Assembly: GCA_012523135.1 (NCBI GenBank)
Contig: JAAYJD010000257.1
Location: 1-38,226, forward strand
Length of the DNA: 38,226 nt
From: Clostridiaceae bacterium
Lineage (GTDB): Bacteria; Bacillota; Clostridia; Saccharofermentanales; UBA5734
Reading direction: 5' to 3'
Shown: in pieces, positions 11,344 to 28,477 of the stretch
How the letters are laid out: each line of letters opens with the position of its first letter
Position numbering within the stretch: the stretch's first letter is position 1
Translations under genes and position numbers: made by a program
The notes under the pieces: model-generated
What the model was told of the DNA's origin: nothing
What the model saw: only the letters and a program-made list of their open reading frames with translations
Databases searched by the model: none

Positions 11344-11378
11344 GAAAAAGGTTATGCCGGATCAGCGAGGACATGTCC

Positions 11379-12572
11379 ATGCCAAACCACCTTAAAAAAC
11401 CGATGACTGCTTTACGCATCGCTTTTCTGGCTGCGGCAGGTTTGGCACTGCTGATCGAGCACGCGGACCGTTTCTGGCTGATCATGCTGCTCCTGATCTG
11501 CGCGATCCTGCCCCTGGTGCTGCTGGGCCAGCCGTTATCTGGTCGGCACGGCTGGGCAGACAAGCTGCTCTGGCTGGCCAGCGCGGGCGCGGCTGTCGCC
11601 GCGCACCTGACAGCAGGGGGGATCGGCTCGCTGCTGCTGATCGATTGGCTGATGATCGAAGCCTGCCTGGTGTTCAGGCCGGCCGTTTTCGTCATGGGCC
11701 AACTGCTCCTGCTGTTCGTTCTGATCTGGCCGCCGCGGCTGCCGGATCTCGTGCCGCAGGTAGCTTTCACGGCAGCCGTCGCCGGCCTGGGCTGGTTGCT
11801 GCATCGCATCCGGCTCGAACAGGCCCGGCAGTCATCCTCCGTGACCAGGCTGCGCCTGGCGGGCAAAGACCTGCAGCTGCAAAGCCAACAGCTGGCGTCA
11901 CGGCAGCAGCTCGAGCTCGAGCAAACACGCCGGGCGGAGCGCCGCCGGATGGCCCGCGGCATCCACGATACGCTTGGCCATACCCTGACCTCGGTCCTGG
12001 TGCAGCTGACAGCCGCGCTGGAATGCCTGCCGTCTCGCGAAGGCAAGGCGTATGACCATCTCATCCAGGCCCAGCAGGAGGCGCGCAACGGCCTGGCCCG
12101 GGTTCGCCAGACGGTTGAGGCGCTGGACCGCCAGGGCCAGACTTTGGCCGAAAAGCTGCAGGCGGTCATCCAATCCGCCCAGACCGGCCTGGCCATCCAG
12201 ATCCTGCCCCTGGTTGAACCGGCGCTATCGCTCACGCCGGCCGCTGAGGAGCTGGTCTTGTCGGCTTTGCAGGAAGGGCTGACCAACGGGGTCCGCCACG
12301 GCCAGGCCACGCGGTTCGTTTTTCGTCTCGAGCAAGCGGATGACCAGCTGCTGTTTTATTTGGAAGACAACGGGCATGGCTGTCCTGAACCCAAACCAGG
12401 TTATGGTTTGACGGCGATCACCCAGTCGGCAGGACAGCTGGGCGGTGTCTGTACGGCCGGCAGCGCTGCGGGCGAAGGCTTTTGCCTGCGGATCGCTTTG
12501 CCTCCCCATACCGTCGTTAAGACCGATCCAGATCCGGCAGCCGGATCTTTGCATGGGGAGGGCATGCCATGA
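11379..12572 (+). CDS. Two-component sensor histidine kinase, NarL/LiaS-type (HisKA_3)
   Basis: 397 residues. The first ~130 residues hold about five hydrophobic segments with very short loops, so the input domain is intramembrane. A coiled region (about 140-190, rich in Gln/Arg/Glu) leads to the HisKA_3 block RRMARGIHDTLGHTLTSVLV with phospho-acceptor His196. The HATPase domain shows the N box EGLTNGVRHGQATRF and the G1 box EDNGHGC, then GYGLTAI. The start at 11379 is chosen because GAGG is eight bases upstream; the in-frame ATG at 11373 is only two bases from it. It overlaps the response regulator by 4 bp (ATGA). Such kinases often sense cell-envelope or membrane stress; the signal here is unknown. 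Confidence 0.92.
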   Translation: MPNHLKKPMTALRIAFLAAAGLALLIEHADRFWLIMLLLICAILPLVLLGQPLSGRHGWADKLLWLASAGAAVAAHLTAGGIGSLLLIDWLMIEACLVFRPAVFVMGQLLLLFVLIWPPRLPDLVPQVAFTAAVAGLGWLLHRIRLEQARQSSSVTRLRLAGKDLQLQSQQLASRQQLELEQTRRAERRRMARGIHDTLGHTLTSVLVQLTAALECLPSREGKAYDHLIQAQQEARNGLARVRQTVEALDRQGQTLAEKLQAVIQSAQTGLAIQILPLVEPALSLTPAAEELVLSALQEGLTNGVRHGQATRFVFRLEQADDQLLFYLEDNGHGCPEPKPGYGLTAITQSAGQLGGVCTAGSAAGEGFCLRIALPPHTVVKTDPDPAAGSLHGEGMP

Positions 12573-13222
12573 TACGCATCATCCTGGCCGATGACCAGCG
12601 GTTGATGACCGACGGCCTGAAAACGATTTTAGAAACACGCGCCGACATCCAGGTGGCCGGTCTGGCCGCCAACGGCCGCCAGGTTCTGGACATCCTGGAG
12701 AACCGCGCGGACCCGGCGGACCTGGTGCTCCTGGATGTGCGTATGCCGGAGATGGACGGGGTGCAGACGGTCCGGGCGATCAAGGAAAAGTGGCCGCAGC
12801 TGCGGGTCCTGATGCTGACGACATTCAATGACGAAACCTATCTTTTGGACGCGCTGGCGGGCGGCGCCGACGGATATCTGCTCAAGGATATGGAAACCGC
12901 GGACCTGTTTGCCGCGATTGACCAGGCCATGGCCGGCCACCTGGTGCTGCCGGGCCAGGTCGCCGACAAGCTGCGATCAAGCATCGCCAGGCTGAAGGAA
13001 CGCCAGCAAAACCTGGACAAGCTGCGCCAGGCCGGCTTCAGTCCGCGGGAAATGGAAATCGGCGCCCTGCTGGCCGAAGGCTACACCAACAGCCAGATCG
13101 CCGCCGCCCTTTACCTGACAGACGGAACGGTACGCAACTACGTCAGCGCCATTTATGACAAGCTGGCCGTAACAGACCGAACCCAGGCGGCGCTGCACCT
13201 GAAGCGTTATTTTACGACTTAA
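12569..13222 (+). CDS. Response regulator, NarL/LuxR (FixJ) type
   Basis: 217 residues. The receiver domain (1-125) has acidic residues ADDQ near the N terminus, phospho-acceptor Asp56 (LLDVRMPEMDG), Thr in MLTTFND and Lys in YLLKDME. The C-terminal LuxR-type helix-turn-helix reads FSPREMEIGALLAEGYTNSQ followed by IAAALYLTDGTVRNYVS. It is the cytosolic partner of the overlapping kinase gene (4-bp overlap). The lipoprotein and ABC exporter genes downstream are the likely targets, and a 23-bp palindrome at 13242-13264 is a candidate binding site. A terminator-like hairpin follows the gene. Confidence 0.94.
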   Translation: MIRIILADDQRLMTDGLKTILETRADIQVAGLAANGRQVLDILENRADPADLVLLDVRMPEMDGVQTVRAIKEKWPQLRVLMLTTFNDETYLLDALAGGADGYLLKDMETADLFAAIDQAMAGHLVLPGQVADKLRSSIARLKERQQNLDKLRQAGFSPREMEIGALLAEGYTNSQIAAALYLTDGTVRNYVSAIYDKLAVTDRTQAALHLKRYFTT

Positions 13223-13353: not shown

Positions 13354-13863
13354 ATGCGCACCCCATTCAGAAACACCCGGCTGGTCCTGCTGGTCGGCCT
13401 GGTGCTGATCGCCGTCACGTTATCCGCCTGCGCCCCGGCCGCTTCCGGAGGCATCAGCTGTGCCGAGACCTACCTGCAGCACCTGATCGACAAAAACTAC
13501 CATGAAGCCTATGCGCTGCTGTCCGACTACGACAAGCAGAACATCCCGGAAGACCTCTACCTGCGCTGGCGGGAAGCGGTGGCCCAGGTGATCACGATCG
13601 AGTCGGCCGAGGTCAACACGAGCGTTGATAAGTTCCCCGACTACAAATACCAGGGTACCGCGATCGGTTATGCGCTCGGTCTGAAGATCAGCCGCGAACA
13701 GGAGACAAAAATGGGCGGCATCGAGCTCGACGGGTATAACCAGCCGGCTTACCGCCAAATGGTGGTATACGAGAACGATCAGTGGAAAATGCTGCTGTTG
13801 CTGTCTGACCTCGAGGTGACCGTTGCCGGATACGAGGCCTTCCTGAAGCCGGCTGCCCGCTGA
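13354..13863 (+). CDS. Secreted lipoprotein, function unknown
   Basis: 169 residues. A signal peptide with hydrophobic core (about residues 10-22) ends in the lipobox LSAC, giving lipidated Cys26 and outer-face membrane anchoring. The mature part begins with CAETYLQHLIDKNYHEAYALLS, a helical pattern seen in NTF2-like/DUF4878 lipoproteins, followed by beta-rich sequence; this assignment is tentative. AAGGA precedes the ATG. Its TGA overlaps the ATG of the next gene (TGATG), so translation is coupled to the large permease and the protein probably works with the exporter, perhaps as an accessory or sensor lipoprotein. Confidence 0.85.
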   Translation: MRTPFRNTRLVLLVGLVLIAVTLSACAPAASGGISCAETYLQHLIDKNYHEAYALLSDYDKQNIPEDLYLRWREAVAQVITIESAEVNTSVDKFPDYKYQGTAIGYALGLKISREQETKMGGIELDGYNQPAYRQMVVYENDQWKMLLLLSDLEVTVAGYEAFLKPAAR

Positions 13864-16367
13864 TGCTGCAGGTAATGCTTCGCTACCTGGCGCGGGACAT
13901 CCTGCGCCAGGGCTGGCGGTCCGGCTTCGTCCTGCTGATCCTGGCCCTGGTTTCGGCCGCCCTGATGGCGTCGCTGTCCCTGGCCGAAACGATGGTTCGC
14001 TCCGGGATGCGCCAGTGGCAGGCAGAATTCGGACAAAGCGACCTGCTGATCCAGGCCAGCCGGCAAAGCGGCCAGCCGTTGTTCCGGGCCAGCCTGATCG
14101 ATACGACGGGTCCGGAAATCGATCTGGCGGTCGGCCGGCTGACGGCGCGAGGCCAGATCCGGACAGCGGGCCGGACCGAGCCGGCCATCCTGACCGGCGC
14201 CAGCCTGGCCGACCTGACCCGGCTGGTCGACCTGCACCTGAAAGAGGTCAAACCCGACCTTTTATTCACCGGCCGCCAGGCCATCCTCAGCGCCGCGGCA
14301 GCGGCGCGTCTGCAGGTGATTGTCGGCGACCTGGTCGAATTGGAGATCCAAGGCAACCGCCACGCTTTCGAGATTGCGGCCCTGGCTTATGCCGAAGGCC
14401 CGTTCGTCCAGGAAGACGGCCCGATCACCGTGCTGGTTCCGCTCGATAAACTGCAATCGGCCATGGGGGTTCCGGACCGCGTGGACAGCATCACGCTGCG
14501 CCTGGTCGACCGGGCCAGCCTGGGACCGGTCATGCGCGCCATGGCGCAGCGCCACCCGGCCCTTTCGGTGACCGAAAGCTATCCGGAGGACCACGCCCGC
14601 CTGCAGGCCAACCGAACCCAAGTCCCCTTTCTGTTCATCTCGATTATCCTCTGTTTTATGGCGATCTCGGTCCTGGTCATCCTATTCACCGGCCTGGTGA
14701 CCGAACGGCTTGCCCTGATCGGCTTGTTCCGGGCATTCGGAGCGTCGCGAACTGAAGCGCGCCGCGTCCTGCTGGCAGAAAGCCTGTGCTTTGGCCTGCT
14801 GGGCGGCATAGCCGGCTGGGCGTTGGGCATCGGTCTGCTGGCTGTTCTGGTGCGCCAGCTCAACGCCGGTACGCCCAACCGCTTCCTGGCCCTCCAGACT
14901 GGTTGGATCCAACTGGCGTTATCGCTCGGTACGGCCCTGGCGGTCAGTCTGGCCGCATCCTGGCTGGCCTTCCATACAACTGCGCGTTTGTCGGTCAGCA
15001 GCCTGATCCGGGGACAGGCTGCCGACCATGGCAGCGGCCGCCTGCGCCCGCTGCCGCTCATCGCCATGCTCCTGGCGCCTTTGACGCTTCTGCTGGCCTG
15101 GCAAAATGAAAAAGGCCTCGTCGTGTACCTGCTGGCGCTGGTCGTCCTGCTGGCCGGACTGGTTCTGCTGCTGCCCCGGCTGGCGCCGGCCTGGCTCAGC
15201 CTGAGTCTGAAAGCCGGCGCCAGGCGAGCCGGACCTGGCATCATCACGGTCTATCAGGCCCGCCGCTCGCGGGACTTTCTCGTTCTGGTCACCTTGCTGT
15301 CGCTGATCGTCACCACCGTCCTGATCGTGCACGCGATTTCGACCAGTGAGACGCGCGGCCAGGTCCAGCTGTCCGGACAGATCCATTACCAGCTGGAACT
15401 GTTCATAACGGACCTGAACCGGAGCGGCATCAACCGCATCAGCCAGATTTCAGGGGTTGACGCGGCTTGCCCGCTCTACACTTCGGGATCGGTGGAAGTC
15501 GCCGGCCAGCGCCTCGCACTGTACCGGGTCCAGGGTGTGCCGGAAACCTACAGCGGCACGTTTCGCGACCTGCAGCTCGATCCCGCGCAGCCGACGGCCT
15601 GGCCGGACCTGTTTGCCGGGCGCGGTCTGCTGCTGACACAAACCATGCGCCGCATCTACAAGGTCGCCGCCGGCGACCCGCTGATTCTTAAAATCTACGC
15701 CCGGGACCGGTCGTACCGGGAAGTCGCCTACACCGTCGTCGGCTTTTTCGACGACTACCAGACCAAGCTGGGCCGCTATGCCCTGATCTCCGACGTGTCT
15801 TTCCGCGAAGATTTCGCGGCCGGAGACTATGACAGCGTGCTGCTCCAGACAGCAGACGCGATCAGGACCCGGGACACCATCCTGGAAACGCTGGGACCCA
15901 GGCCGCTGGAGCTGCTGGTGCAGCGCGACGTGCTGGCCGATCTGGCCCGCGAGGGCCGCCAGGTGGTCGCCGCGCTGCAGCTGATCGCAGCTTTGTCTGT
16001 TCTGATCGGAATCCTTGGCCTGACCAACACCGCCTTGCTGCTTTTCATGCGCCGGCGGCGCGAAATCAGCCTTTACTACGCGTTTGGTCTGACCTCCGAC
16101 CATATCCTGCGCCTGTTCCTGGGGGAGCTGCTGCTGGCGGGGGCGCTGGGCTCCCTGAACGGGCTGGCCGGCGGGTTGCTTGTCGCGGCCGCCGCGCTGC
16201 CCCGGCTGGTGTTCGCGCTGCAGATTGCCCTGCGCATCTCAATTGGCCGCCCGGTTTTTTGGCTGGGGCCGGCCGTTGGCATGGGCATCGCCGCGTGCGT
16301 ATCGCTGCTCTGCCTGGTGTTCTTAAACCGTTCCAACCCGATGCGCGGGCTAAGGGAAGGAGAATAG
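13863..16367 (+). CDS. ABC transporter permease with two FtsX/MacB-type domains
   Basis: 834 residues. One transmembrane segment near the N terminus (about 18-40) is followed by a ~200-residue extracellular domain, then three segments (about 255-375, including FLFISIILCFMAISVLVILF), two further segments (about 395-440), a second extracellular domain (about 480-690) and three C-terminal segments (about 700-820). This is the duplicated FtsX-like layout of large lipoprotein- or peptide-exporting permeases. Motifs such as LIGLFRAFGASRTEARRVLL and ISLYYAFGLTSDHILRLFL are the coupling-helix regions after FtsX transmembrane segments. It partners with the ATPase 2 bp downstream. The substrate is unknown; antimicrobial peptide or lipid extrusion is typical for such systems. 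Confidence 0.9.
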   Translation: MLQVMLRYLARDILRQGWRSGFVLLILALVSAALMASLSLAETMVRSGMRQWQAEFGQSDLLIQASRQSGQPLFRASLIDTTGPEIDLAVGRLTARGQIRTAGRTEPAILTGASLADLTRLVDLHLKEVKPDLLFTGRQAILSAAAAARLQVIVGDLVELEIQGNRHAFEIAALAYAEGPFVQEDGPITVLVPLDKLQSAMGVPDRVDSITLRLVDRASLGPVMRAMAQRHPALSVTESYPEDHARLQANRTQVPFLFISIILCFMAISVLVILFTGLVTERLALIGLFRAFGASRTEARRVLLAESLCFGLLGGIAGWALGIGLLAVLVRQLNAGTPNRFLALQTGWIQLALSLGTALAVSLAASWLAFHTTARLSVSSLIRGQAADHGSGRLRPLPLIAMLLAPLTLLLAWQNEKGLVVYLLALVVLLAGLVLLLPRLAPAWLSLSLKAGARRAGPGIITVYQARRSRDFLVLVTLLSLIVTTVLIVHAISTSETRGQVQLSGQIHYQLELFITDLNRSGINRISQISGVDAACPLYTSGSVEVAGQRLALYRVQGVPETYSGTFRDLQLDPAQPTAWPDLFAGRGLLLTQTMRRIYKVAAGDPLILKIYARDRSYREVAYTVVGFFDDYQTKLGRYALISDVSFREDFAAGDYDSVLLQTADAIRTRDTILETLGPRPLELLVQRDVLADLAREGRQVVAALQLIAALSVLIGILGLTNTALLLFMRRRREISLYYAFGLTSDHILRLFLGELLLAGALGSLNGLAGGLLVAAAALPRLVFALQIALRISIGRPVFWLGPAVGMGIAACVSLLCLVFLNRSNPMRGLREGE

Positions 16368-16369
16368 CC

Positions 16370-17089
16370 ATGACCGTGCTGTCCTGCCGGAACCTGACCA
16401 AAGCGTATGTTCTGGGCGAACAGGTGACACCTGTCCTGCATGATGTCTCCTTGGCGATCCGGGCCAATGAATTCGTGGCCGTGATGGGCCCGTCCGGGTC
16501 GGGCAAGAGCACCCTGCTCCATTGCCTGGGCCTGCTGGAACCGATCGACCAGGGGGAACTGTCGGTGCTGGGCGAGCAGACGGCCGCGCTGAGCGACCGC
16601 GCCAAGGCCAGAATGCGGCGCAGCCATATGGGTTTCGTGTTCCAGTCCTTCTACCTAGTGCCGGGTTTGAGTGTGCGGGAAAACATCCTGCTGCCGCTTT
16701 TCATCAATCGCATCCGTCTCGATCGCGACGCCCGGGTCGACCGCATGCTGGACCAGGTCGGTTTGTCCCACCGGGCCGCCTATCGGCCCAACCAGCTATC
16801 CGGCGGCGAACAGCAGCGCTGCGCGCTGGCCAGGGCCCTGATCGGACACCCGGACCTGCTCTTTCTCGATGAGCCGACCGGCAACCTGGACAGCCAAAAC
16901 GGGGCGGATATCCTGCGCCTGGTCAGCGAGGCCGTTCGCAGCAGCCACGTGACGGCTATCATGGTCACCCACGATCTGGCGGCCGCCAGATGCTGTGACC
17001 GCATCATCACGATTCGCGACGGCCGGATCGAACGCATCAGCAGCAACCGCCAGGCAGCGGTCAAGGAGGTTCCAGATGATGACACATAA
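16370..17089 (+). CDS. ABC transporter ATP-binding protein (MacB/LolD type)
   Basis: 239 residues, cytosolic ATPase. Walker A GPSGSGKST, Q-loop FVFQSFYLVPGLSVRENI, ABC signature LSGGEQQRCALARAL, Walker B LLFLDEPTGNLDS and H-loop MVTHD are all intact. The Q-loop and DEPTGNLD wording is typical of the MacB/LolD group that pairs with FtsX-like permeases. The start at 16370, two bases after the permease stop and after GGGAAGGAG, is preferred over longer in-frame starts inside the permease. Its 3' end overlaps the adaptor gene by 14 bp, indicating coupled translation within the exporter operon. Confidence 0.95.
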   Translation: MTVLSCRNLTKAYVLGEQVTPVLHDVSLAIRANEFVAVMGPSGSGKSTLLHCLGLLEPIDQGELSVLGEQTAALSDRAKARMRRSHMGFVFQSFYLVPGLSVRENILLPLFINRIRLDRDARVDRMLDQVGLSHRAAYRPNQLSGGEQQRCALARALIGHPDLLFLDEPTGNLDSQNGADILRLVSEAVRSSHVTAIMVTHDLAAARCCDRIITIRDGRIERISSNRQAAVKEVPDDDT

Positions 17090-18206
17090 ACAAAAAATCT
17101 GCCGGATCGGCGTCCTGGCCTGCCTGGCCGTCCTGCTCGTCTGGCTGGCAGTCGGCTGCCAGACGCAGGCCGACCCGGGACAAGCCGAACCCACACCAGG
17201 CGGTGAACCCAAACCGGGAGCAGTTACCTTTTACGGCACCGTCAACCGCGGCCAGGTTCAGGCTGTCTCCTTGCCCTTCGCCGTCCAGGTCAACGCCTGG
17301 CTAGTCCGGGAAGGCGAGCGGATCGAGGATCAAAGACCCTTGCTGCAGCTGGACCTGGACCCGCTCCGGCAACAAGCGGACGACCTGGAGCGCCAACGGC
17401 AAACACTGCGCGGCGCAGCCGGCGTCCTGCAGGCACAGGCGGATTGGACCGACCAGCGCAGCATGGCGGTGCAAGAGGCCTTGAAGGTCGACCTGGAACC
17501 GGGTCTTGCCAACCTGGAGAAATGGTACCGGGCCACATCGCGTACCCGGCGCAGCCAATACGCAGCTGAACTGCGCCTGTTTCTAGACGGCCTGGAAAGC
17601 CTTGACCTTTACGGTTCCCTGCTGGCCCTGACCCGGGATGCCGACCAGGTCGCGGACCTGGCCCGTCCGATCCTGATGCGGCGGCAGGCAGACCTGAGCC
17701 GTCAGTGTGACGAGTATCGGCTGGCGCACATGAATCTACAGCAGCAGTTGCTGGAGAACCGGCTCGCTCAGCAGGCGGTGGACACCGAGCTGGAGCAGCT
17801 TGCCGCACTGCTGGACGGATCCTGGCGAACGTCATTCGGCCGGATCGACGACAAAGGGCGGCTGCTCTATAGCGGGGAGCCCCGGATGGTCGATGCGATG
17901 CCGGCCGATTGGCCGGCGGCGTTTTCGTCCGGCGAACCGCTGCTGCTCCTGGCGGAGGCAGCGGTGCATAGTCTGACCATCCAGGTCGAAGAACAGCTCG
18001 TAACGCAGGTGGTTCCCGGCGCACCCGTGCTTATCTCGCCACTTTATGACCGCACCCTGGCCTGGACCGGTGTGGTTGCCCAGGTCAGCGCAAAAGCTGA
18101 TATAATCAATGGCGAAACAGTCGTTCCGGTTCTGGTGACAACCGAGGCCGACCTGCCAGGGCCAGGCTACACCGTTATCGCCAAAGTCCTTCCGGTTAAC
18201 GGCTGA
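17076..18206 (+). CDS. MacA/HlyD-like efflux adaptor lipoprotein
   Basis: 376 residues. Signal peptide with lipobox AVGC, so lipidated Cys28 anchors it outside the membrane. A Pro/Gly-rich linker is followed by a barrel-sandwich (lipoyl-like) half from about 50 to 95, a long helical coiled coil (about 100-250, rich in Leu, Gln, Arg, Glu), then the second half with GEPLLLLAEAAVHSLTIQVE and a beta-barrel-like end. This is the order of RND/MacA-type adaptors. AAGGAGG precedes ATG 17076. In a single-membrane cell it may carry the substrate across the wall zone or gate the permease. It lies between the ATPase and the second permease. Confidence 0.85.
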   Translation: MMTHKQKICRIGVLACLAVLLVWLAVGCQTQADPGQAEPTPGGEPKPGAVTFYGTVNRGQVQAVSLPFAVQVNAWLVREGERIEDQRPLLQLDLDPLRQQADDLERQRQTLRGAAGVLQAQADWTDQRSMAVQEALKVDLEPGLANLEKWYRATSRTRRSQYAAELRLFLDGLESLDLYGSLLALTRDADQVADLARPILMRRQADLSRQCDEYRLAHMNLQQQLLENRLAQQAVDTELEQLAALLDGSWRTSFGRIDDKGRLLYSGEPRMVDAMPADWPAAFSSGEPLLLLAEAAVHSLTIQVEEQLVTQVVPGAPVLISPLYDRTLAWTGVVAQVSAKADIINGETVVPVLVTTEADLPGPGYTVIAKVLPVNG

Positions 18207-18216
18207 TGGTGATCCG

Positions 18217-19350
18217 ATGAATCCGCTGTCCGCGCTCGCCTATTACCGCTGTTTTCGCAAACGGCTGCTGCTGCTGTTCCTGCCGGTCATGCTCTGCGTG
18301 ATGGTCCTGTTCCTGATCCAGGCCGTGATCGTATCCAGCATCCAGCTTGAGCACCGGGCTTTTGTTGTCACCCGCAAAGCCTATACCAGCATCCAGGCCA
18401 AGGGTAAACCGATCAGCCTGGACACGATCGCGGCCATTCGCCTGCACGAGAACACCGCCCGGGTCGCGCCCTGCATCCTCAGCCATACGGAGATCACCAG
18501 CCTGCTGAGCCGGATCGGGGTTCGCGTCTATCTGCTCGGCGACCCGGATATGCGGTTGCTCATGGAGCGCATGGACGTCTCCCTCGTCTCAGGCCGCCTG
18601 CCCGCTGCCGGCAGCGACGAGATCGTCCTGCACGACGTTGTCGCGCGCAACAAGGGGCTGGCGGTTGGCGACCGGCTGGGCAGCGATCTTGATCCGTCCG
18701 AGACCTTGCTGGGCGCCTATACCCTGGTCGGCCTGTTGGAGGGGGACGCTCTGTGCGGCTTTGCCTCGCTGGAAAACTGGCAAACGGTGCACGATGTGGC
18801 GGTCCCCGAGGAATACGGCATCCTGGTCATGCCCCAGCCAGGCCGGCTGGCCGCGCTCAACCAGTTTGTTGCCTATCTGCCGCTCAGCGGCAACGAACTG
18901 AGCTCACTGCCGGTAAGCACAGCGACGCTCACCGAGTCGGCTAACCGGATTTACTTGCTGTTGAATACGGTTTTTGTCGCGGTTTTGCTGATCAACGCCA
19001 TCTGTGTCAGCTTCCTGACCTACCTGTTTACCTTGAGCCGGTCGCGCGAGTTCGCCGTGCTTAACGCGATCGGATATAGCCGGCGGGCCATTTTCCAACG
19101 CAGCCTGCTCGATGTCCTGATTCTCAACCTCCTGGCGGCGGCAACCGGCCTCCTTTTCTCCCTGCTGGTGGCCCTCGGCCTGCAAGCCACATTCTTTCTG
19201 GCCGCCGGCCGGCCGCTGACATTGCTATCGCTCCAGGTCTGGCTGCCGGCGCTCTGTGTGCCGCTGGCCTCTGTGCTGGCGGAAATGGTGGCCATCCGCA
19301 GCATCTTCAGTCGGCTGGATCCGATGCAGCTGCTGGACCAGGACGCCTGA
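18217..19350 (+). CDS. ABC transporter permease, single FtsX-type domain
   Basis: 377 residues with four transmembrane segments: about 18-42, then about 245-270 (LLNTVFVAVLLINAICVSFL), 295-325 and 335-360, with a ~200-residue extracellular domain between the first and second. This is the MacB/FtsX permease plan. The coupling region reads SREFAVLNAIGYSRRAIFQR. It starts 10 bp after the adaptor gene and ends 20 bp before its own ATPase. Being smaller than the first permease and having its own ATPase, it may form a separate exporter that shares the adaptor, or a mixed complex. The ribosome binding site is weak, so translation is probably coupled. Confidence 0.9.
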   Translation: MNPLSALAYYRCFRKRLLLLFLPVMLCVMVLFLIQAVIVSSIQLEHRAFVVTRKAYTSIQAKGKPISLDTIAAIRLHENTARVAPCILSHTEITSLLSRIGVRVYLLGDPDMRLLMERMDVSLVSGRLPAAGSDEIVLHDVVARNKGLAVGDRLGSDLDPSETLLGAYTLVGLLEGDALCGFASLENWQTVHDVAVPEEYGILVMPQPGRLAALNQFVAYLPLSGNELSSLPVSTATLTESANRIYLLLNTVFVAVLLINAICVSFLTYLFTLSRSREFAVLNAIGYSRRAIFQRSLLDVLILNLLAAATGLLFSLLVALGLQATFFLAAGRPLTLLSLQVWLPALCVPLASVLAEMVAIRSIFSRLDPMQLLDQDA

Positions 19351-19370
19351 GCTGGCGAAAGGAGCCTGAC

Positions 19371-20027
19371 ATGCAGCTGGATGCCTTTGAGCTGTCCCTG
19401 GTCTACCCGGTTCTTTCCGGTCCGCCGGTCGTCGCCCTTGACCATGTGAACCTGACCGTGCGTACAGGTGACCTGATCGGAGTCCTCGGTCCGTCCGGCA
19501 GCGGCAAGAGCACGCTGCTCTACTTGCTGGCCGGACTGAAAAAACCGTCCTCGGGCGCCGTTTTCCTGGACAACCAGGACTTGGCCAGCCATAACGACGA
19601 CGAGCTCGAACGCCGTCGTCTGGCCAGTTTCGGTTTTATCTTTCAGCGCCATTACCTGCTGCCTCACCTGGATCTGCTGGACAACATCCTGCTGCCGGTC
19701 CAGCACAACAGGCCCCAGGCAGCCGAAAAAGCACGTCAGTTGGCCGGAGAACTGGGGCTCGACGTCGACCTGAAGCGCCGGCCGCATGAGCTTTCGGTCG
19801 GCCAGCGCCAGCTGGTCGCGGTCGCCCGGGCCCTGATCAACGATCCCGTCCTGATTTTCGCCGACGAACCGACCGCGTCGCTGGACAGCGAGACCGGCTT
19901 GCGCGTGATGGACTGCCTGGCCCGGCAGCTGCATCGGGCCGGCATGGTCGTCGTGACACACGATTTCAAGATCCTCCACCAGGCCACGGAGATCCACCAG
20001 CTGCGCGACGGCCGGATCCTGGCCTGA
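19371..20027 (+). CDS. ABC transporter ATP-binding protein, second of the exporter operon
   Basis: 218 residues. Walker A GPSGSGKST, Q-loop FGFIFQRHYLLPHLDLLDNI, signature LSVGQRQLVAVARAL (the usual LSGGQ is LSVGQ), Walker B LIFADEPTASLDS and H-loop VVTHD. All catalytic elements are retained. AAAGGAG precedes the ATG. It is the last gene of the exporter operon; the ABC-F promoter begins right behind its stop codon. It pairs by position with the single-domain permease. Confidence 0.95.
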   Translation: MQLDAFELSLVYPVLSGPPVVALDHVNLTVRTGDLIGVLGPSGSGKSTLLYLLAGLKKPSSGAVFLDNQDLASHNDDELERRRLASFGFIFQRHYLLPHLDLLDNILLPVQHNRPQAAEKARQLAGELGLDVDLKRRPHELSVGQRQLVAVARALINDPVLIFADEPTASLDSETGLRVMDCLARQLHRAGMVVVTHDFKILHQATEIHQLRDGRILA

Positions 20028-20028
20028 A

Positions 20029-20057
20029 TTGCCTGCAGCGCCTGGCCATGCTAAAAT
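20029..20057 (+). promoter_or_regulatory. Promoter of the ABC-F leader
   Basis: TTGCCT (20029-20034), 17-bp spacer and TAAAAT (20052-20057), the latter preceded by TGC as an extended -10. It begins immediately after the upstream ATPase stop and would give a leader of roughly 210 nt before the ABC-F start. Confidence 0.6.
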
Positions 20058-20098
20058 AAATGCATCCGCCACCTGCTGGCCATGAAAGGAACACGTCC

Positions 20099-20119
20099 AT
20101 GATTGAGAAGATTGGCTGA
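20099..20119 (+). CDS. Six-codon leader ORF (MIEKIG) upstream of ABC-F
   Basis: ATG ATT GAG AAG ATT GGC TGA, preceded by AAAGGA eight bases upstream, an ordinary strong spacing. Its codons 3-7 are complementary to 20166-20179, so a ribosome stalled on it would melt that helix. An even shorter ORF (20082-20102, MKGTRP) ends in an ATGA overlap with it but has no visible ribosome binding site. The peptide is probably regulatory and not a functional product. This assignment rests on position and RNA complementarity only. Confidence 0.55.
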   Translation: MIEKIG

Positions 20120-20264
20120 ACGAAAAAGGCGCACAAGCCGGATTTTTTGCTTGTGCCGCTGCAGGCAGTGAATCTTCTTCAGATAGGACCTGGGCGACCG
20201 GGACTCGGCACGGCTGGCTTTCCGGCTGTGATACGCGTTAAAACCTGCCTGCGGCAGGTTTTTT
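20105..20264 (+). promoter_or_regulatory. Ribosome-mediated attenuator leader of the ABC-F gene
   Basis: Three mutually linked helices can be drawn. (1) The leader ORF 20105-20118 pairs with 20166-20179 (about 12 of 14 positions, two GU, one GG mismatch). (2) Enclosed hairpin: GCACAAGC (20131-20138) with GCTTGTGC (20149-20156). (3) Antiterminator: 20158-20168 (GCTGCAGGCAG) with 20245-20255 (CTGCCTGCGGC), 11 bp with one GU, which would destroy the terminator at 20240-20264. Helix 1 uses part of the antiterminator strand, so stalling on the leader ORF should favour antitermination and ABC-F expression. This logic is known for several antibiotic-inducible ABC-F genes; here it is inferred. Confidence 0.6.
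20240..20264 (+). terminator. Intrinsic terminator directly before the ABC-F start
   Basis: AAAACCTGCC (20240-20249) pairs perfectly with GGCAGGTTTT (20253-20262) around a TGC loop and ends in a six-T tract. It lies 10 bp before the ATG, with the GGAGG site (20265-20269) right behind it, so only read-through transcripts carry the gene. Confidence 0.8.
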
Positions 20265-20274
20265 GGAGGGTATC

Positions 20275-21825
20275 ATGACGGTTCTTCAGGTTTTACATCT
20301 ATCTAAATCGTACACAGACCGAAGCCTGCTCCAGGATCTGACGTTCAGCCTGGGCGTGGGCGAACGGGTCGGGCTGGTCGGCAACAACGGCTGCGGCAAG
20401 ACCACACTGCTGCGCATGCTGGCTGGCCAGGAAGTGCCGGACAGCGGCGAGATCCGCCTGGCCAGCCATCTGAGCGTTGGCTATCTGCCCCAGCTGCCGG
20501 ATCCGCGGGCCGACCTAGACAGCCTGCAGGCTCAGCACCGGGCCGGTGAAAAACCGCAGTTGGCCTGGCAGCTGAATCCGGAAGGTCTGGACGAGCGGAC
20601 CGTCGCACAGGCCGCCACCTTGTCCGGCGGCGAACGGACCCGCCTGGCCCTGAGCCGCTTTTTGGCGTCAGCCCCGGATATCCTGCTGCTGGACGAGCCG
20701 ACCAACAACCTGGATCTGGATGGGATCCAGACCGTGATCCGCCTGCTCCAGGACGCCATGGGCAGCATGATCATCGTATCCCACGACCGCTACCTGCTCG
20801 ATCAGCTGGTCACGCGCATCCTGGAAATCGACAACACCGGCATCCGCTCGTATACTGGCAACTATTCCCAGTACCGGGCGGAAAAGGAACGGCTGCTGCA
20901 AGAAAGCCTGCATCGCTACGCGGAAAGCCGAAAACAGCAGCGTCAGTTGCAGGAGGAGATCGTCCAGAAACGCCAGTGGGCCGACAAGGCGCACCGTGAT
21001 TCGACCAAGATGGACTCAAGCGGCAACAAAATGGGGCTTAAGGAATACAAGCGCGTCAAGGCCGGCAAGCTGGCCCGCAAGGCCAAGCAGGATATGCGCC
21101 GGCTGGAGCGGCTGCAGCAGGAAACCGGAACCAGGCCAAAAACGGAGCTGAAAACCACCATCGCGTTCGATGGCCAGGAACGGCATGGCAAGCGCATTCT
21201 GGAAGCGGTCGGACTCGGCAAAGCCTACCCGTCCCACCCCCTGTTTTTTGACAGCCACTTTTTCATCCTGCGCGGTGAGAAGGTCGCCCTGACCGGACCG
21301 AACGGCTGCGGCAAGACGACGCTGGTCCGCCTGATTCAAGGGCTGGAGCCGCCCGACAGCGGGCGGCTGCTGGTCAGCCCGAGCTGTTCGCCGGTCGTGA
21401 TGGGCCAAACCCTGGAGCGGCTGCCCTCCGGTCACACCTTGCTGTCCTACCTGACCGGCAAGCTGGGCAAGCTGGACGGCGCGGACCGGGCCACGCTGGA
21501 ACAAATGGGTTTTACGAACGCGCATCTGCTCCTGCCAGCCGACCGGATCAGCCCTGGCGAACTGGTTCGCTTGCGCATCGCCGAGCTGATCCTGACCCAC
21601 CAGGATTTCCTGATCCTGGACGAACCGACCAACTACCTGGATTTACGGGCGCGCGAACAGCTTGAACAGGCGCTGGTCCAGGTGCAGGCGACGCTGCTGC
21701 TCGTCTCACACGACCTTTACCTGCAAAAGGCCGTGTGCGATAAGGTGCTGGTCTTCACGGAAGGCCGCATCATGCGCCGGGAGGAATCCTTTGCCGACTA
21801 CCTGGAATACGAACGCGGCCTCTGA
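20275..21825 (+). CDS. ABC-F family ATPase (ribosome-protection type)
   Basis: 516 residues with two ABC domains and no membrane segments. Domain 1: Walker A GNNGCGKTT, signature LSGGERTRLALSRFL, Walker B LLLDEPTNNLDLD, H-loop SHDRYLL. A highly charged helical linker (about 210-300) carries the ribosome-contacting arm. Domain 2: Walker A GPNGCGKTT, signature SPGELVRLRIAELIL, Walker B LILDEPTNYLDL, SHDLYL. Second-domain signature is degenerate (SPGEL), as in several antibiotic-resistance ABC-F proteins. It acts on the ribosomal exit site, either displacing antibiotics or aiding translation. The attenuator leader favours the antibiotic-resistance type (Vga/Lsa/Msr/VmlR-like), but a housekeeping role is not excluded. 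Confidence 0.93.
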   Translation: MTVLQVLHLSKSYTDRSLLQDLTFSLGVGERVGLVGNNGCGKTTLLRMLAGQEVPDSGEIRLASHLSVGYLPQLPDPRADLDSLQAQHRAGEKPQLAWQLNPEGLDERTVAQAATLSGGERTRLALSRFLASAPDILLLDEPTNNLDLDGIQTVIRLLQDAMGSMIIVSHDRYLLDQLVTRILEIDNTGIRSYTGNYSQYRAEKERLLQESLHRYAESRKQQRQLQEEIVQKRQWADKAHRDSTKMDSSGNKMGLKEYKRVKAGKLARKAKQDMRRLERLQQETGTRPKTELKTTIAFDGQERHGKRILEAVGLGKAYPSHPLFFDSHFFILRGEKVALTGPNGCGKTTLVRLIQGLEPPDSGRLLVSPSCSPVVMGQTLERLPSGHTLLSYLTGKLGKLDGADRATLEQMGFTNAHLLLPADRISPGELVRLRIAELILTHQDFLILDEPTNYLDLRAREQLEQALVQVQATLLLVSHDLYLQKAVCDKVLVFTEGRIMRREESFADYLEYERGL

Positions 21826-21851
21826 CAGCCGCCCTCCGGTTGTGATAGGAT
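21822..21851 (+). promoter_or_regulatory. Promoter before the four-pass membrane protein
   Basis: CTGACA (21822-21827, overlapping the ABC-F stop), 18-bp spacer, TAGGAT (21846-21851) with an upstream TGTG extension (TGTGATAGGAT). Moderate match. Confidence 0.4.
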
Positions 21852-21890
21852 GGATATAGAACGACAGTCGCACACCAGGAGGACGCACGC

Positions 21891-22634
21891 ATGGAGCGTA
21901 TCCCGATCTTGCATCGCCGACCCTTTATCGTCTCGGGCATTTTCGCCTTGCTGGCCGCAGGGGTCATCGTGCTGGGCATTTATCGGCTGAATGTCTTAAG
22001 CGACTTCGACGCACCCGGCTACATCCTGATGGGTATCCTGTTGCTTGTGACCGCTCTGACCATCGCTGTGGTCTACGGTTTGCAAGAAAAACAGTTCCGC
22101 AAGGCGATGCGCCAGCCCCTGATGATCTATACGCTGGATCCGGTCTGGCTCAAGGAGATCATCGCCAAAAACAGCGCCGAGATCAGGGGCCAGAACAAGG
22201 TCATGCTGCTCGTGATGGTCTTCTTTTGCGCCCTGATGGCGATCATCTTCCTGTTTCTGGGCGAAGACGGACGGATGGTCAGCCTGGCCATGGTCGGCCT
22301 GGCCGCCTTTCTGGCCCTGGCCGCCTGGCTGATCACCCAATACCGGATCAGCAAGCTGAAAAAGGGCGGGCAGCATGTTCTGCTCAGCCCGGACGGCGTT
22401 CTTTTCCTGGGCCAGTTCCACACCTGGGCGTTGCCTGGCGGTCGCCTGGACCAGGCCGCTTATGATCCGCCGGTCCCGGAGCGCGGCCAGGCTGGTACGA
22501 TCGAACTGGTTTATTCGCTTCCGGGCCGGTTCAACCGCAACCGGGCGGTCCTCCATGTCCTGGTCCCGCCGGAGCTGGACGACCAGGCCCGGCAAAGCCT
22601 GATCCAACTGCGCCTTAAAAACCGTCTGAAATAA
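21891..22634 (+). CDS. Four-pass membrane protein, unknown function
   Basis: 247 residues, family not recognised. Four hydrophobic segments: about 12-32 (FIVSGIFALLAAGVIVLGIY), 43-63, 104-124 and 130-150. They are arranged as two hairpins with a ~40-residue cytosolic loop between. The last ~95 residues are soluble and beta-like, with LLSPDGVLFLGQFHTWAL and a final helix rich in Leu/Gln/Arg. This pattern resembles small PH-domain-like membrane proteins of Bacillota, but no firm match can be claimed. AGGAGG precedes the ATG. It has its own weak promoter and may also receive ABC-F read-through. Confidence 0.75.
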   Translation: MERIPILHRRPFIVSGIFALLAAGVIVLGIYRLNVLSDFDAPGYILMGILLLVTALTIAVVYGLQEKQFRKAMRQPLMIYTLDPVWLKEIIAKNSAEIRGQNKVMLLVMVFFCALMAIIFLFLGEDGRMVSLAMVGLAAFLALAAWLITQYRISKLKKGGQHVLLSPDGVLFLGQFHTWALPGGRLDQAAYDPPVPERGQAGTIELVYSLPGRFNRNRAVLHVLVPPELDDQARQSLIQLRLKNRLK

Positions 22635-22683
22635 GGTTCTCTCATGTTTAACAGAAGAAAAAGACGCAAATAGCAAAAAAGCC

Positions 22684-22714
22684 TTGCCTCTGACGTTACG
22701 TCAGCGTCTATAAT
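22684..22714 (+). promoter_or_regulatory. MerR-type promoter with 19-bp spacer and central operator
   Basis: TTGCCT (22684-22689) and TATAAT (22709-22714) are 19 bp apart, the long spacer typical of MerR-controlled promoters. The spacer holds the perfect dyad CTGACGTTACGTCAG (22690-22704). It lies 26 bp before the MerR-family gene, so the regulator probably controls its own expression by DNA distortion. Confidence 0.8.
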
Positions 22715-22740
22715 GAGCGGCAGGAAGGTGAGGAATCGTC

Positions 22741-23562
22741 ATGCTGATTAAAAAAGCTGCCCAGGCAACTGGCCTGACTGAACGTGCGATCCGCTTCTAC
22801 GAGGAGGCGGGCCTGATCGCGCCCAGGCTCAACGCGTCGCGTTTCCGCGATTACCGCGAGGAAGATCTGGAACGGCTCCGGCAAATCGCCGCTCTGCGCG
22901 GCCTGGGCTTGTCCCTGGACGAGATCACGGTTTTTCTGACCCAGCCTGAACAAGCCCGGGACTTGCTTGAAACGGTGCGCCGGCGGCTGCAAGCCAAGGC
23001 AGACCGGGCCCAGCAGGGCGAAGCCGCCCTGGCCCGGGCGCTGCAGGCTGCCCCGGCAGCACAAGACTCGTCCGACTGGATGCGGCTGCTGGCTGTGCCC
23101 GGTAACCGGCCGAAGCCGCCGCAGGCAGGCAGCGCGAAGAAACGGTACACAGGAGGAATCCCCATGCGCGAATCAAAAATGAGTTCCATTATCTGGATCG
23201 CGGGTCTGCTCGCGGTGATCGCAGGCGTCATCCTGGCTTTTGCCGGCCTGCTGATCGCATATCACAACAACCAGCCGTTCCCGCTTGGCAACGCCTTGCT
23301 GAACCTGATCGTCACGATCATCCCCGGCCTGGCCGCCATGGCGCTGGCCGAGGTCCTGGAAAACCAGGCGGCGCTCCAGCTCCAGAACCAGCGCCTGCAG
23401 CTGAGCCTGCTGGACATGGCTGACGGCGCATCAGACGAGGTGGTCGCGGAGACGCCCCCAACCCAGACCTGGAAGTGTGCAGCCTGCAACGGCCTCAACG
23501 CGTCGGACGCCCTCTACTGCCGCCACTGCCAGGCGCTGCGCGATTTCAGGGCCCGCTCCTGA
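22741..23562 (+). CDS. MerR-family regulator fused to a two-pass membrane domain and zinc ribbon
   Basis: 273 residues. The N terminus is a MerR winged helix: IKKAAQATGLTERAIRFYEE, then FRDYREEDLERLRQIAALRG and GLSLDEI, followed by a dimerisation helix to about 105. From residue 142 come two hydrophobic segments (about 149-173 and 183-203), a short coiled coil (ENQAALQLQNQRLQLSLLDM) and a C-terminal zinc ribbon with Cys246, Cys249, Cys260 and Cys263. An AGGAGG site lies in frame just before Met142 (23164), so a shorter membrane-zinc-ribbon product may also be made. No frameshift separates the halves. It converges on the arabinofuranosidase gene (stops 2 bp apart). Effector and targets are unknown apart from its own promoter. 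Confidence 0.88.
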   Translation: MLIKKAAQATGLTERAIRFYEEAGLIAPRLNASRFRDYREEDLERLRQIAALRGLGLSLDEITVFLTQPEQARDLLETVRRRLQAKADRAQQGEAALARALQAAPAAQDSSDWMRLLAVPGNRPKPPQAGSAKKRYTGGIPMRESKMSSIIWIAGLLAVIAGVILAFAGLLIAYHNNQPFPLGNALLNLIVTIIPGLAAMALAEVLENQAALQLQNQRLQLSLLDMADGASDEVVAETPPTQTWKCAACNGLNASDALYCRHCQALRDFRARS

Positions 23563-23564
23563 TT

Positions 23565-25100
<1,536 letters not shown>

Positions 25101-25746: not shown

Positions 25747-26289
25747 ATGAACCCAACCCGAAAAACCCTGATCCGCCTGATCCTGGCCGGCATGTTTCTG
25801 GCCCTGGGACTGGTCCTGCCCTTCCTGACCGGCCAGATCCCGCAGATCGGCTCCATGCTGCTGCCGATGCACATCCCGGTCCTGATCTGCGGCTTTGTCT
25901 GCGGCTGGCCCTACGGCCTGGTCGTCGGCCTGATCACACCGGTTCTGCGCAGCCTGCTGTTTGGCATGCCGCCGATGTTCCCAGTCGCCGTGGCCATGGC
26001 CTTCGAACTGGCTGCCTACGGGTTCATGACCGGTCTGCTCTACAAGTTGCTGCCCAAGAAGATCCCCTTCATCTATGTCACCCTGGTCGCGGCCATGATC
26101 GTAGGCCGGGTCATCTGGGGTCTGGTCATGTTCCTGCTGATCTCATCCGGCGGCAACGCCTTTACCTTCTCGGCGTTCCTGGCTGGTGCGTTTATCAATG
26201 CGGTCCCCGGCATCGTCGTTCAGATCGTCCTGATCCCGCTTATCGTCCTGGCCCTGCAGAAGGCTCACCTGATGAAATATGCCGACTGA
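25747..26289 (+). CDS. ECF transporter S component (substrate-binding membrane subunit)
   Basis: 180 residues, about six hydrophobic segments and almost no soluble part, as in S components of energy-coupling-factor vitamin transporters. Recognisable blocks are LAGMFLALGLVLPFLTGQIP, MLLPMHIPVLICGFVCGWPY, RSLLFGMPPMFPVAVAMAFE and the C-terminal AGAFINAVPGIVVQIVLIP. The substrate class cannot be assigned. The energising ATPases and T subunit are not in the window and are probably shared from elsewhere. GAGGAGG lies just before the ATG at 25747. Its stop overlaps the kinase start by 11 bp. Expression is probably set by the leader hairpins. Confidence 0.88.
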   Translation: MNPTRKTLIRLILAGMFLALGLVLPFLTGQIPQIGSMLLPMHIPVLICGFVCGWPYGLVVGLITPVLRSLLFGMPPMFPVAVAMAFELAAYGFMTGLLYKLLPKKIPFIYVTLVAAMIVGRVIWGLVMFLLISSGGNAFTFSAFLAGAFINAVPGIVVQIVLIPLIVLALQKAHLMKYAD

Positions 26290-27367
26290 ATTTACTTTTC
26301 GCGACTGCCTGGGTCTTCATGCCCGGCGATACCCGCACATGGAGATCCAGGATCTGGTCAAGCTGGCTTACCAGGCCAGTCAGGGCGGCGGCCACCTGGT
26401 CGCCTCTGAAGCGGATGCGCTGGCCTTTCTGCGCGCCGAAAGCGAGCAGACGCGGACTGAACAGCATGAGCCGGAACCGGATGTCTGCGAACCGGCCGGC
26501 CCGGACTTCTGTCGCGTCCACCTGCGCGCGTTGCCCGCGGCGGGGTTGTCCCTGGATACCGTCGCCCGGGTCTTTATCCTGAGCGCCGCCCAGCCGCCGG
26601 GCGGACAGCAGGCACTCGACGACCTGCTCGGCCAGGTCCGGGCGGCGCTCGAACAGGATCTGCCCCTCGCGCGGCCAATCGGGCTGGCCGACTGGGACCG
26701 CTGGATCGCCGCCTACCGCGCCCAAGGCTGTCCGGCGGTGCATCACAGCGACGCGTACCGGCTATCCTACCGGCCGGCCTACCGCCTGGTGACAGCGCGT
26801 TTCGCCAGGATCCTGCCGCTGTTCCAGGCGATCGACCCCTTGCTGCGCGACAAGCCGCGCGTCGTGGTCGCGCTCGACGGCTGCAGCGGATCGGGGAAAA
26901 GCACCTGGGCAAATTTCCTGCACGAGGTGTATGGCGGCAACTTGTTCCACATGGACGATTTCTTTTTGCGGCCCGGACAGCGGACCGAAAAACGTCTGGC
27001 GGAGACGGGCGGCAACATCGATTACGAGCGGTTTGCCGCCGATGTGCTCGCCGGCCTGGCCGGCGATGCGCCGTTTGGCTATCGCCGCTACGACTGCCGG
27101 ACGCAGACGCTGGGCGAACCCATCCTGGTCAAGCCGGCCCGGTTCAATCTCATCGAAGGCGTCTACAGCCATCACCCGATATTTGCCGGCCATTATGACC
27201 TGAAAGCCTTTTTGCGCGTAACGGCGGACCAGCAGCACAAGCGCATCCTGGCGCGCAGCGGTCCTGAGCTGTACCGCCGTTTCGTGAACGAGTGGATACC
27301 GATGGAGAACCGTTATTTCAGCACCATGCAGATCGCTGAAAACAGCGACCTGATCCTGGATGTGTGA
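26279..27367 (+). CDS. Two-domain P-loop kinase (uridine kinase-like C-terminal domain)
   Basis: 362 residues. The C-terminal half is a uridine kinase/phosphoribulokinase-like P-loop domain: Walker A GCSGSGKS (201-208), then NLFHMDDFFLRP (Asp-Asp lid motif), then IEGVYSHHPIF and KRILARSG. The N-terminal ~170 residues contain RRYPHMEIQDLVKLAYQASQ followed by GGGHLV, a domain I recall as a separate uncharacterised family in Clostridia; its role is unknown. The substrate may be a nucleoside or a related small molecule. It overlaps the ECF S component and is 9 bp ahead of rtcB, so the three are one transcript. Whether it phosphorylates the compound imported by the S component is inference. Confidence 0.82.
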   Translation: MPTEFTFRDCLGLHARRYPHMEIQDLVKLAYQASQGGGHLVASEADALAFLRAESEQTRTEQHEPEPDVCEPAGPDFCRVHLRALPAAGLSLDTVARVFILSAAQPPGGQQALDDLLGQVRAALEQDLPLARPIGLADWDRWIAAYRAQGCPAVHHSDAYRLSYRPAYRLVTARFARILPLFQAIDPLLRDKPRVVVALDGCSGSGKSTWANFLHEVYGGNLFHMDDFFLRPGQRTEKRLAETGGNIDYERFAADVLAGLAGDAPFGYRRYDCRTQTLGEPILVKPARFNLIEGVYSHHPIFAGHYDLKAFLRVTADQQHKRILARSGPELYRRFVNEWIPMENRYFSTMQIAENSDLILDV

Positions 27368-27376
27368 GGCAGTCCG

Positions 27377-28477
27377 ATGATCCTCTTGCGCGGCAGGTAC
27401 AATACGGCCAAGGTGTTCACCGACAAGCTGGAGCCGCTGGCCCGGGCCCAGATCGAGCGGCTGCTGGACCAGCCGTTCGTGTCCGCCAGCCAGATCCGCA
27501 TCATGCCGGATGTGCACGCCGGTGCCGGGTGTACGATCGGCACCACGATGACGATCCAGGACCAGGTCGTGCCCAACCTGGTCGGCGTCGATATCGGCTG
27601 CGGCATGGCGGTCGCCGTCCTGGAGCAGGAGGATCTGGACCTGGCCAGGCTGGACCGGCTGATCCACCAGGCGATTCCGGCCGGCTTTGCGGTACGCAAA
27701 ACCGCCCACCCCCTGCACAGCGAGCATGAGCTGGAGCAGCTGCGCTGCCTGCCGGTCATCAACGCCCAGCGGGCCCGGCTCAGCATCGGCACGCTGGGCG
27801 GCGGCAACCACTTCATCGAGGTCGACCGGGACGACGACGGCTGTCTCTACCTGGTCATCCACACCGGCAGCCGCCACCTGGGCAAGCAGGCGGCAGAGCA
27901 TTACCAGAAAGAAGCGGCCCGCAAGCAGGCCGGTTCGGGGATCGACCGCGACCTGGCACCCTGCGAAGGCAGATTGCTTGACGACTACCTGCACGACATG
28001 GCCCTGATCCAGCGCTATGCCGACCGCAACCGCCAGGCGATTCTGGCCGAGCTGGTCCGTCTGCTCCGCCTGGATATCGCCGACAGCTGGTCAACCATCC
28101 ACAACTACATCGATCTGGACAGCCGCATCCTGCGCAAGGGCGCCGTTTCCGCCCGGGCCGGCGAGCGGCTTCTGATCCCGATCAACATGCGCGACGGCAG
28201 CCTGATCTGCCTGGGCAAAGGCAACCGCGACTGGAACGAATCGGCGCCCCACGGAGCCGGACGCCTGATGAGCCGCACCCAGGCCCGGAAGACGATCTCG
28301 CTGGACGATTACCGGCGCTCGATGGATGGCATCTACACCAGCACCGCCAACCGGGAAACGCTCGATGAGGCGGCTTTCGCCTACAAGCCGCTCGACGAGA
28401 TCCTTGATAACATCGGCGATACCGTGACGGTCGTCCGGCGCATCCGGCCGATCTACAATTTCAAAGCTGCGGAATAA
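27377..28477 (+). CDS. rtcB: RtcB-family RNA ligase
   Basis: Joins RNA 2',3'-cyclic phosphate or 3'-phosphate ends to 5'-OH ends using GTP and Mn2+. 366 residues, at the short end of the family (E. coli RtcB is about 408). Metal and catalytic residues are present: Asp72 and Cys75 in GVDIGCGM, His145 in GTLGGGNHFIEV, His162 in IHTGSRHLG, His242 in WSTIHNYID and the guanylylated His292 in SAPHGAGRLMSR. The start at 27377 is 9 bp after the kinase stop. No archease gene is nearby. Unusually it is in an operon with an ECF transporter and a P-loop kinase, which hints at RNA repair or nucleotide salvage. Confidence 0.93.
   Translation: MILLRGRYNTAKVFTDKLEPLARAQIERLLDQPFVSASQIRIMPDVHAGAGCTIGTTMTIQDQVVPNLVGVDIGCGMAVAVLEQEDLDLARLDRLIHQAIPAGFAVRKTAHPLHSEHELEQLRCLPVINAQRARLSIGTLGGGNHFIEVDRDDDGCLYLVIHTGSRHLGKQAAEHYQKEAARKQAGSGIDRDLAPCEGRLLDDYLHDMALIQRYADRNRQAILAELVRLLRLDIADSWSTIHNYIDLDSRILRKGAVSARAGERLLIPINMRDGSLICLGKGNRDWNESAPHGAGRLMSRTQARKTISLDDYRRSMDGIYTSTANRETLDEAAFAYKPLDEILDNIGDTVTVVRRIRPIYNFKAAE

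Follow-up and report, generated by a model that had tools for sequence, protein, structure and literature searches.

The vmlR gene of Bacillus subtilis is preceded by a leader in which a three-codon upstream open reading frame (uORF) lies within an anti-antiterminator, together with an antiterminator, a terminator and a helix that hides the Shine-Dalgarno (SD) sequence, and this leader was dissected by mutation (PMC9226507). Drug-induced stalling on the uORF was established experimentally to prevent termination, lincomycin, iboxamycin and retapamulin were identified as inducers, and a NusG-dependent pause occurs in this leader (PMC9226507). The genes for VmlR2, CplR and LsaA carry other short conserved uORFs, and in the case of cplR attenuation of transcription was found by experiment to be combined with translational attenuation (PMC10201436).

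We analyzed a 38,226-nucleotide stretch of DNA from a Clostridiaceae bacterium (contig JAAYJD010000257.1), referred to below as the window, in which an ABC-F gene follows a leader of about 211 nt. In our assessment, this leader very likely acts by ribosome-mediated attenuation of transcription, probably with added control of translation, and keeps an ARE2 ABC-F gene off until ribosomes are inhibited. Upon comparison with the vmlR leader (219 nt), we found the same components, namely a uORF inside an anti-antiterminator hairpin, an antiterminator, an intrinsic terminator and an SD-hiding helix before a related ABC-F gene, and both uORFs start with Met-Ile (PMC9226507). In contrast, the vmlR uORF encodes MIN in three codons and the window uORF MIEKIG in six, and no similarity of leader sequence was noticed. 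The cplR leader of Clostridioides difficile is likewise clostridial and combines a short uORF, a terminator at the gene start and SD sequestration, but it belongs to another ABC-F subfamily (ARE1), its uORF reads MR[I/M], and its SD lies in the terminator stem, whereas that of the window lies just after the stem (PMC10201436). A short uORF with the consensus MK[L/Q] was also predicted before the VmlR2 gene of Neobacillus vireti (PMC10201436). The Rfam covariance models gave no match in the window at the gathering score; relaxed settings returned only a chance-level hit on the opposite strand (E 0.99).

The ABC-F protein downstream of the leader

The protein matched the NCBIfam ribosomal-protection equivalog model NF000355 with 426 bits (cut-off 380) and contains two ABC domains. 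Its best relatives of solved structure were VmlR2 (8BUU, 351 bits) and VmlR. In a maximum-likelihood tree of 39 ABC-F proteins, in which the VmlR and VmlR2 rows came from the HMMER alignment and were not full length, it was placed with VmlR, VmlR2 and clostridial orthologs in a group of 16 rows (support 99/98), with EttA and Uup outside the VmlR/VmlR2 group. As judged from its sequence, the gene is an ARE2-type ABC-F gene (group name as in PMC10201436) and a probable antibiotic-protection gene.

The extended interdomain linker (ARD; KAHRDSTK...KEYKRVKA) aligned almost end to end with that of N. vireti VmlR2 (8BUU; PMC10201436). In particular, E257 and Y258 correspond to VmlR2 E265 and Y266, which are reported to be important for resistance (PMC10201436). 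Some differences were present: the ARD loop is 2 residues shorter than in VmlR2 and longer than in VmlR, the protein falls on a separate ARE2 sub-branch from VmlR2, and it ends at residue 516 without the C-terminal extension of either protein, which VmlR requires for resistance (PMC9226507), a caution for the predicted protective role. The orthologs L002, L003, L112 and L114 are equally short (509-525 aa), and L111, L113 and L115-L119 are longer (577-600 aa). Because the close orthologs are equally short, the missing extension appears to be a trait of the branch and not the mark of a broken gene; the extension is a feature of VmlR and VmlR2, not a criterion of the ARE2 group, and we do not claim the protein as a VmlR. 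The plasmid collection contained no match of at least 60% identity (the best, from Paenibacillus, reached about 40%), and the plasmids searched thus give no indication that the gene has spread recently. Viral contigs held no relatives of the protein.

Leader elements and their conservation in the nearest ortholog

A first-pass annotation of this DNA had described a promoter, an SD sequence, a six-codon leader ORF, a long helix, an antiterminator and a terminator in front of the gene. Inspection of the sequence, a promoter scan and an inverted-repeat search recovered each of them at the positions given in Table 1.

Table 1. Features of the leader and of the ABC-F gene, in window coordinates.
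Feature	Position	Strand	Details
Promoter	20029-20057	+	TTGCCT 20029-20034, 17-nt spacer with TG, TAAAAT 20052-20057
SD sequence of leader ORF	20085-20090	+	AAAGGA, from the sequence; identical in L002
Leader ORF (uORF)	20099-20119	+	MIEKIG*, ATGATTGAGAAGATTGGCTGA; at the corresponding place MIEKMS* in G002 and MKKIR* in G009
Anti-antiterminator helix, 5' arm	20105-20118	+	within leader ORF; partner 20166-20179
Hairpin within anti-antiterminator	20131-20156	+	20131-20138 with 20149-20156
Antiterminator, 5' arm	20158-20168	+	partner 20245-20255
Anti-antiterminator helix, 3' arm	20166-20179	+	shares 20166-20168 with antiterminator arm
Intervening hairpin	20209-20230	+	CACGGC...GCTGTG; conserved in part
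Outer helix around terminator	20229-20275	+	TGATAC/GTATCA, 20229-20234 with 20270-20275; inverted-repeat search and predicted fold
Intrinsic terminator	20240-20264	+	20240-20249 with 20253-20262; its 20245-20255 is the antiterminator 3' arm
ABC-F protein, ARE2 type (VmlR/VmlR2 relative)	20275-21825	+	516 aa; NF000355, structure matches, tree

The putative promoter matches the sigma-70 consensus at 9 of 12 positions, which is weak taken alone; it has an extended -10 TG, and the extended -10 TGCTAAAAT was found again upstream of the orthologs L002 and L003. The SD of the leader ORF forms a duplex of -5.9 kcal/mol with the anti-SD sequence, and by itself the uORF SD score in the window was equaled by 10% of shuffles. 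The leader helix, that is the anti-antiterminator helix, contains a single mismatch (20114/20170), and the antiterminator comprises 11 bp including one G-U. The terminator has a perfect 10-bp stem, a TGC loop and six T; its T run stops at 20264, which leaves 10 nt to the ATG (20275). Additionally, we found an element that the first-pass annotation had not listed, the outer helix, which encloses the ABC-F SD (GGAGGG, 20265-20270) and, as modeled, would hinder ABC-F translation in read-through RNA. The fold of the 211-nt leader had a z-score of -3.5, with none of 200 shuffles as good, and the leader-ORF hairpin alone reached -2.4; the duplex between the uORF and its downstream segment was weak in a mononucleotide-shuffle test (z -1.1).

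Two further candidates were rejected. A second possible leader ORF, MKGTRP (ATG 20082), loses its ATG in L002. A perfect 11-nt inverted repeat (20030-20040/20157-20167) joins the -35 region to the antiterminator arm. Since it falls in that -35 region, before the point where transcription is expected to begin, and since L002 lacks it, it was rejected as an arm of the switch and is probably due to chance.

The nearest ortholog, L002, is 87% identical in protein sequence and comes from a genome of the same genus (G002; record JAAYLM010000130.1, labeled Oscillospiraceae MAG). DNA homology with its locus (L031) starts at 20026, just past the upstream gene, and extends across the ABC-F gene as far as 21830; the gene that precedes the leader in G002 is unrelated to that of the window, and the next homologous block spans 23571-25081. 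The promoter, leader and ABC-F gene therefore form a conserved unit whose neighbors change. Within the leader, uORF codons 1-4 (12/12), the SD (6/6), the terminator and the outer helix are identical, the last consequently giving no covariation signal there, and the stretch from the terminator to the ATG agrees at 47 of 49 positions. Only 29 of 45 positions agree in 20184-20228.

The first-pass annotation had made its reading depend on conservation of the leader ORF and pairings in relatives, and it had proposed a search for covarying homologous leaders. The comparison did not refute that reading: in L002 the uORF (as MIEKMS*), the SD and three helices are kept, and the two sequences show one compensatory and several pair-preserving changes. 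The compensatory change, 20133-20154 from A-U to G-C, lies in the hairpin inside the anti-antiterminator; 20115-20169 passes from G-U to G-C, and 20166 from C to T with pairing kept in both the leader helix and the antiterminator. Ten of the 11 antiterminator pairs are identical and one is kept as G-U. Pairing is lost at 20113-20171 in the leader helix and at 20138-20149 in the inner hairpin. With two sequences, one double change, several one-sided changes and two broken pairs, the substitutions are suggestive and do not amount to a statistical test of covariation.

Predicted switching and the level of control

Folding was computed on part-made transcripts in which the antiterminator 3' arm had emerged and most of the terminator 3' arm had not. 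For the free leader, the predicted number of leader-helix pairs was 14.3 in the window and 11.0 in L002, and that of antiterminator pairs was 0.2 and 0.9, respectively. When the leader ORF was masked by a ribosome, both sequences gave 0 leader-helix pairs and 10.9-11.0 antiterminator pairs, and codons 1, 4 and 6 as P-site positions led to the same outcome. As a control, the RNA between the leader ORF and the terminator was shuffled, and leaders whose ribosome-dependent gain was at least that of the real one were counted: 3 of 150 for the window, 0 of 150 for L002 and 6 of 150 for L003 (G009). The earlier claim that the helices exclude one another in the order expected for drug-induced stalling was thus supported by folding the free and the masked leader of two genomes and by the shuffles; antiterminator and terminator are, as computed in both, mutually exclusive, and a ribosome positioned on the uORF decides between them. 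Once the terminator is fully transcribed, equilibrium favors it, most clearly in L002, and the antiterminator must therefore win kinetically.

In the mechanism that we propose, ribosomes would clear the six codons quickly when no drug is present, so that the leader ORF RNA could pair with 20166-20179; this helix would block the antiterminator, and the terminator would halt RNA polymerase before the gene. A drug-stalled ribosome on the first codons would cover the leader ORF with its footprint and prevent the leader helix, whereupon 20158-20168 would pair with 20245-20255 and polymerase would enter the ABC-F gene. The outer helix would lower translation of leaked transcripts. By analogy, the most likely inducers are drugs that act on the peptidyl transferase center near initiation, namely pleuromutilins, lincosamides, streptogramin A and nucleoside antibiotics; these classes are expected because of the protein family (ARE2 factors) and the shortness of the uORF.

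The leader might instead act mainly or only on translation, with the terminator stem and outer helix hiding the ABC-F SD and stalling setting it free. The position of GGAGGG inside the outer helix fits such control, as does its placement in two orthologs, L003 and L004, where the SD (GGAGG and CGGAG, respectively) forms part of the terminator stem, on its 3' side; moreover, a C. difficile cplR reporter without the poly-U tract was still drug-regulated, so that translational attenuation alone suffices there (PMC10201436). However, a perfect 10-bp stem with six T is typical of an intrinsic terminator, the SD of the window lies outside that stem, and the outer helix shows no covariation. We therefore consider control mainly or only by translation unlikely and favor transcription attenuation, to which the outer helix probably adds a translational layer.

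Distant orthologs, neighboring genes and implications

To place the leader among wider relatives, we compared distant orthologs of 39-52% protein identity (L003 at 52%) from the same family and other families of the class. None, as far as searched, had leader DNA alignable with the window, and a DNA search of 58 related genomes for further copies of the leader returned only G000 and G002; two matches of 25-31 bases to the leader elsewhere look like chance. Nevertheless, uORFs with a good SD were found before the distant genes, encoding MKKIR, MISDE, MIIFSCK, MCGYSF, MRRIFLAF, MRISFLAR, MRICFLAS and MRITVLK. In L118, L112, L117 and L003 the uORF has a complementary segment farther downstream (z -4.5 to -2.7 in the mononucleotide-shuffle duplex test), and a terminator stood shortly before the gene in L003, L004, L116, L117 and L119 by an automatic criterion and in L115 and L118 by eye. 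Across 15 relatives the best-SD uORFs exceeded shuffle expectation (Fisher chi-square 89.6 on 30 df), a value that overstates independence, as the set holds close relatives such as L001 and L002. EttA/Uup-like control genes of related genomes gave no such uORF signal (chi-square 24.2 on 34 df). By the automatic criteria, L111, L113 and L115 had no convincing uORF. The plan thus appears, from these sequences, to recur in most ARE2 orthologs across Clostridia, with the uORF and leader sequence exchanged. In another family of the same taxonomic order, L005 and L008, on a separate ABC-F branch that groups with Vga/Msr in the tree, likewise have a short uORF (MRIYF and MQIYF, respectively) with a strong SD some 105 nt upstream of the ABC-F gene.

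The exchanged uORFs bear on what the leader senses. A leader ORF that responds to slow codons (a shortage of amino acids or charged tRNA) or to general translation stress, and not to a drug class, would agree with the finding that the masked state is the same for every stalled ribosome modeled, and defects in ribosome assembly likewise induce vmlR (PMC9226507). However, the uORF codons vary from ortholog to ortholog (MIEKIG, MIEKMS, MKKIR, MISDE, MRISFLAR, MRITVLK, MIIFSCK), no codon is repeated in the manner of amino-acid attenuators, and the controlled gene encodes a ribosomal-protection protein and not a biosynthetic one; we consider this reading very unlikely. That no leader-ORF regulation exists, the terminator of the upstream transporter operon lying by chance before the ABC-F gene amid coincidental pairings, is extremely improbable even though short ORFs and predictable helices occur widely and several single tests were weak, as G002 shares the promoter, uORF, helices and terminator but not the upstream gene, the switch exceeds shuffles, and the Clostridia orthologs mostly repeat the plan. 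Conservation of the leader with its gene, the plan of most distant orthologs and the ARE2 placement accordingly support the first-pass reading of an antibiotic-inducible ABC-F attenuator.

The neighborhood offers further observations. A histidine kinase, a LuxR-type response regulator, FtsX/MacB-like permeases and, directly upstream of the leader, an ABC ATPase are encoded at 11373-13222 and 13863-20027, possibly forming a stress- or peptide-responsive transporter module; in G002 this module is not adjacent to the ABC-F gene. Downstream, an unknown protein and a MerR-type regulator (21831-23570) lie between the ABC-F and arabinofuranosidase genes; L031 lacks the two intervening genes, and the ABC-F and arabinofuranosidase genes are adjacent there. 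An RtcB-type RNA ligase gene occupies 27377-28477, and the ORF before it (26279-27367) has a weak AAA_33 match.

It had also been suggested that the determinant might be an uncharacterized one. The type of system is well known: as modeled, the locus is a convincing but ordinary new relative of vmlR-type switches, from which it differs in its uORF and in the sequence of its leader. A more specific idea, which we regard as rather unlikely, is that this ARE2 branch of uncultured Clostridia, lacking the extension, has leaders that answer to, and proteins that protect against, a set of drugs unlike that of VmlR, with uORFs (MIEK-, MKKIR, MISDE) tuned to it. By prediction, the locus extends the vmlR-type RNA switch to uncultured Clostridia, in a lineage labeled Oscillospiraceae at NCBI. 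If the gene is inducible, it would add intrinsic resistance that the known catalogue does not contain, and the differing uORFs would be a usable set for asking which drugs cause stalling on which short peptides.
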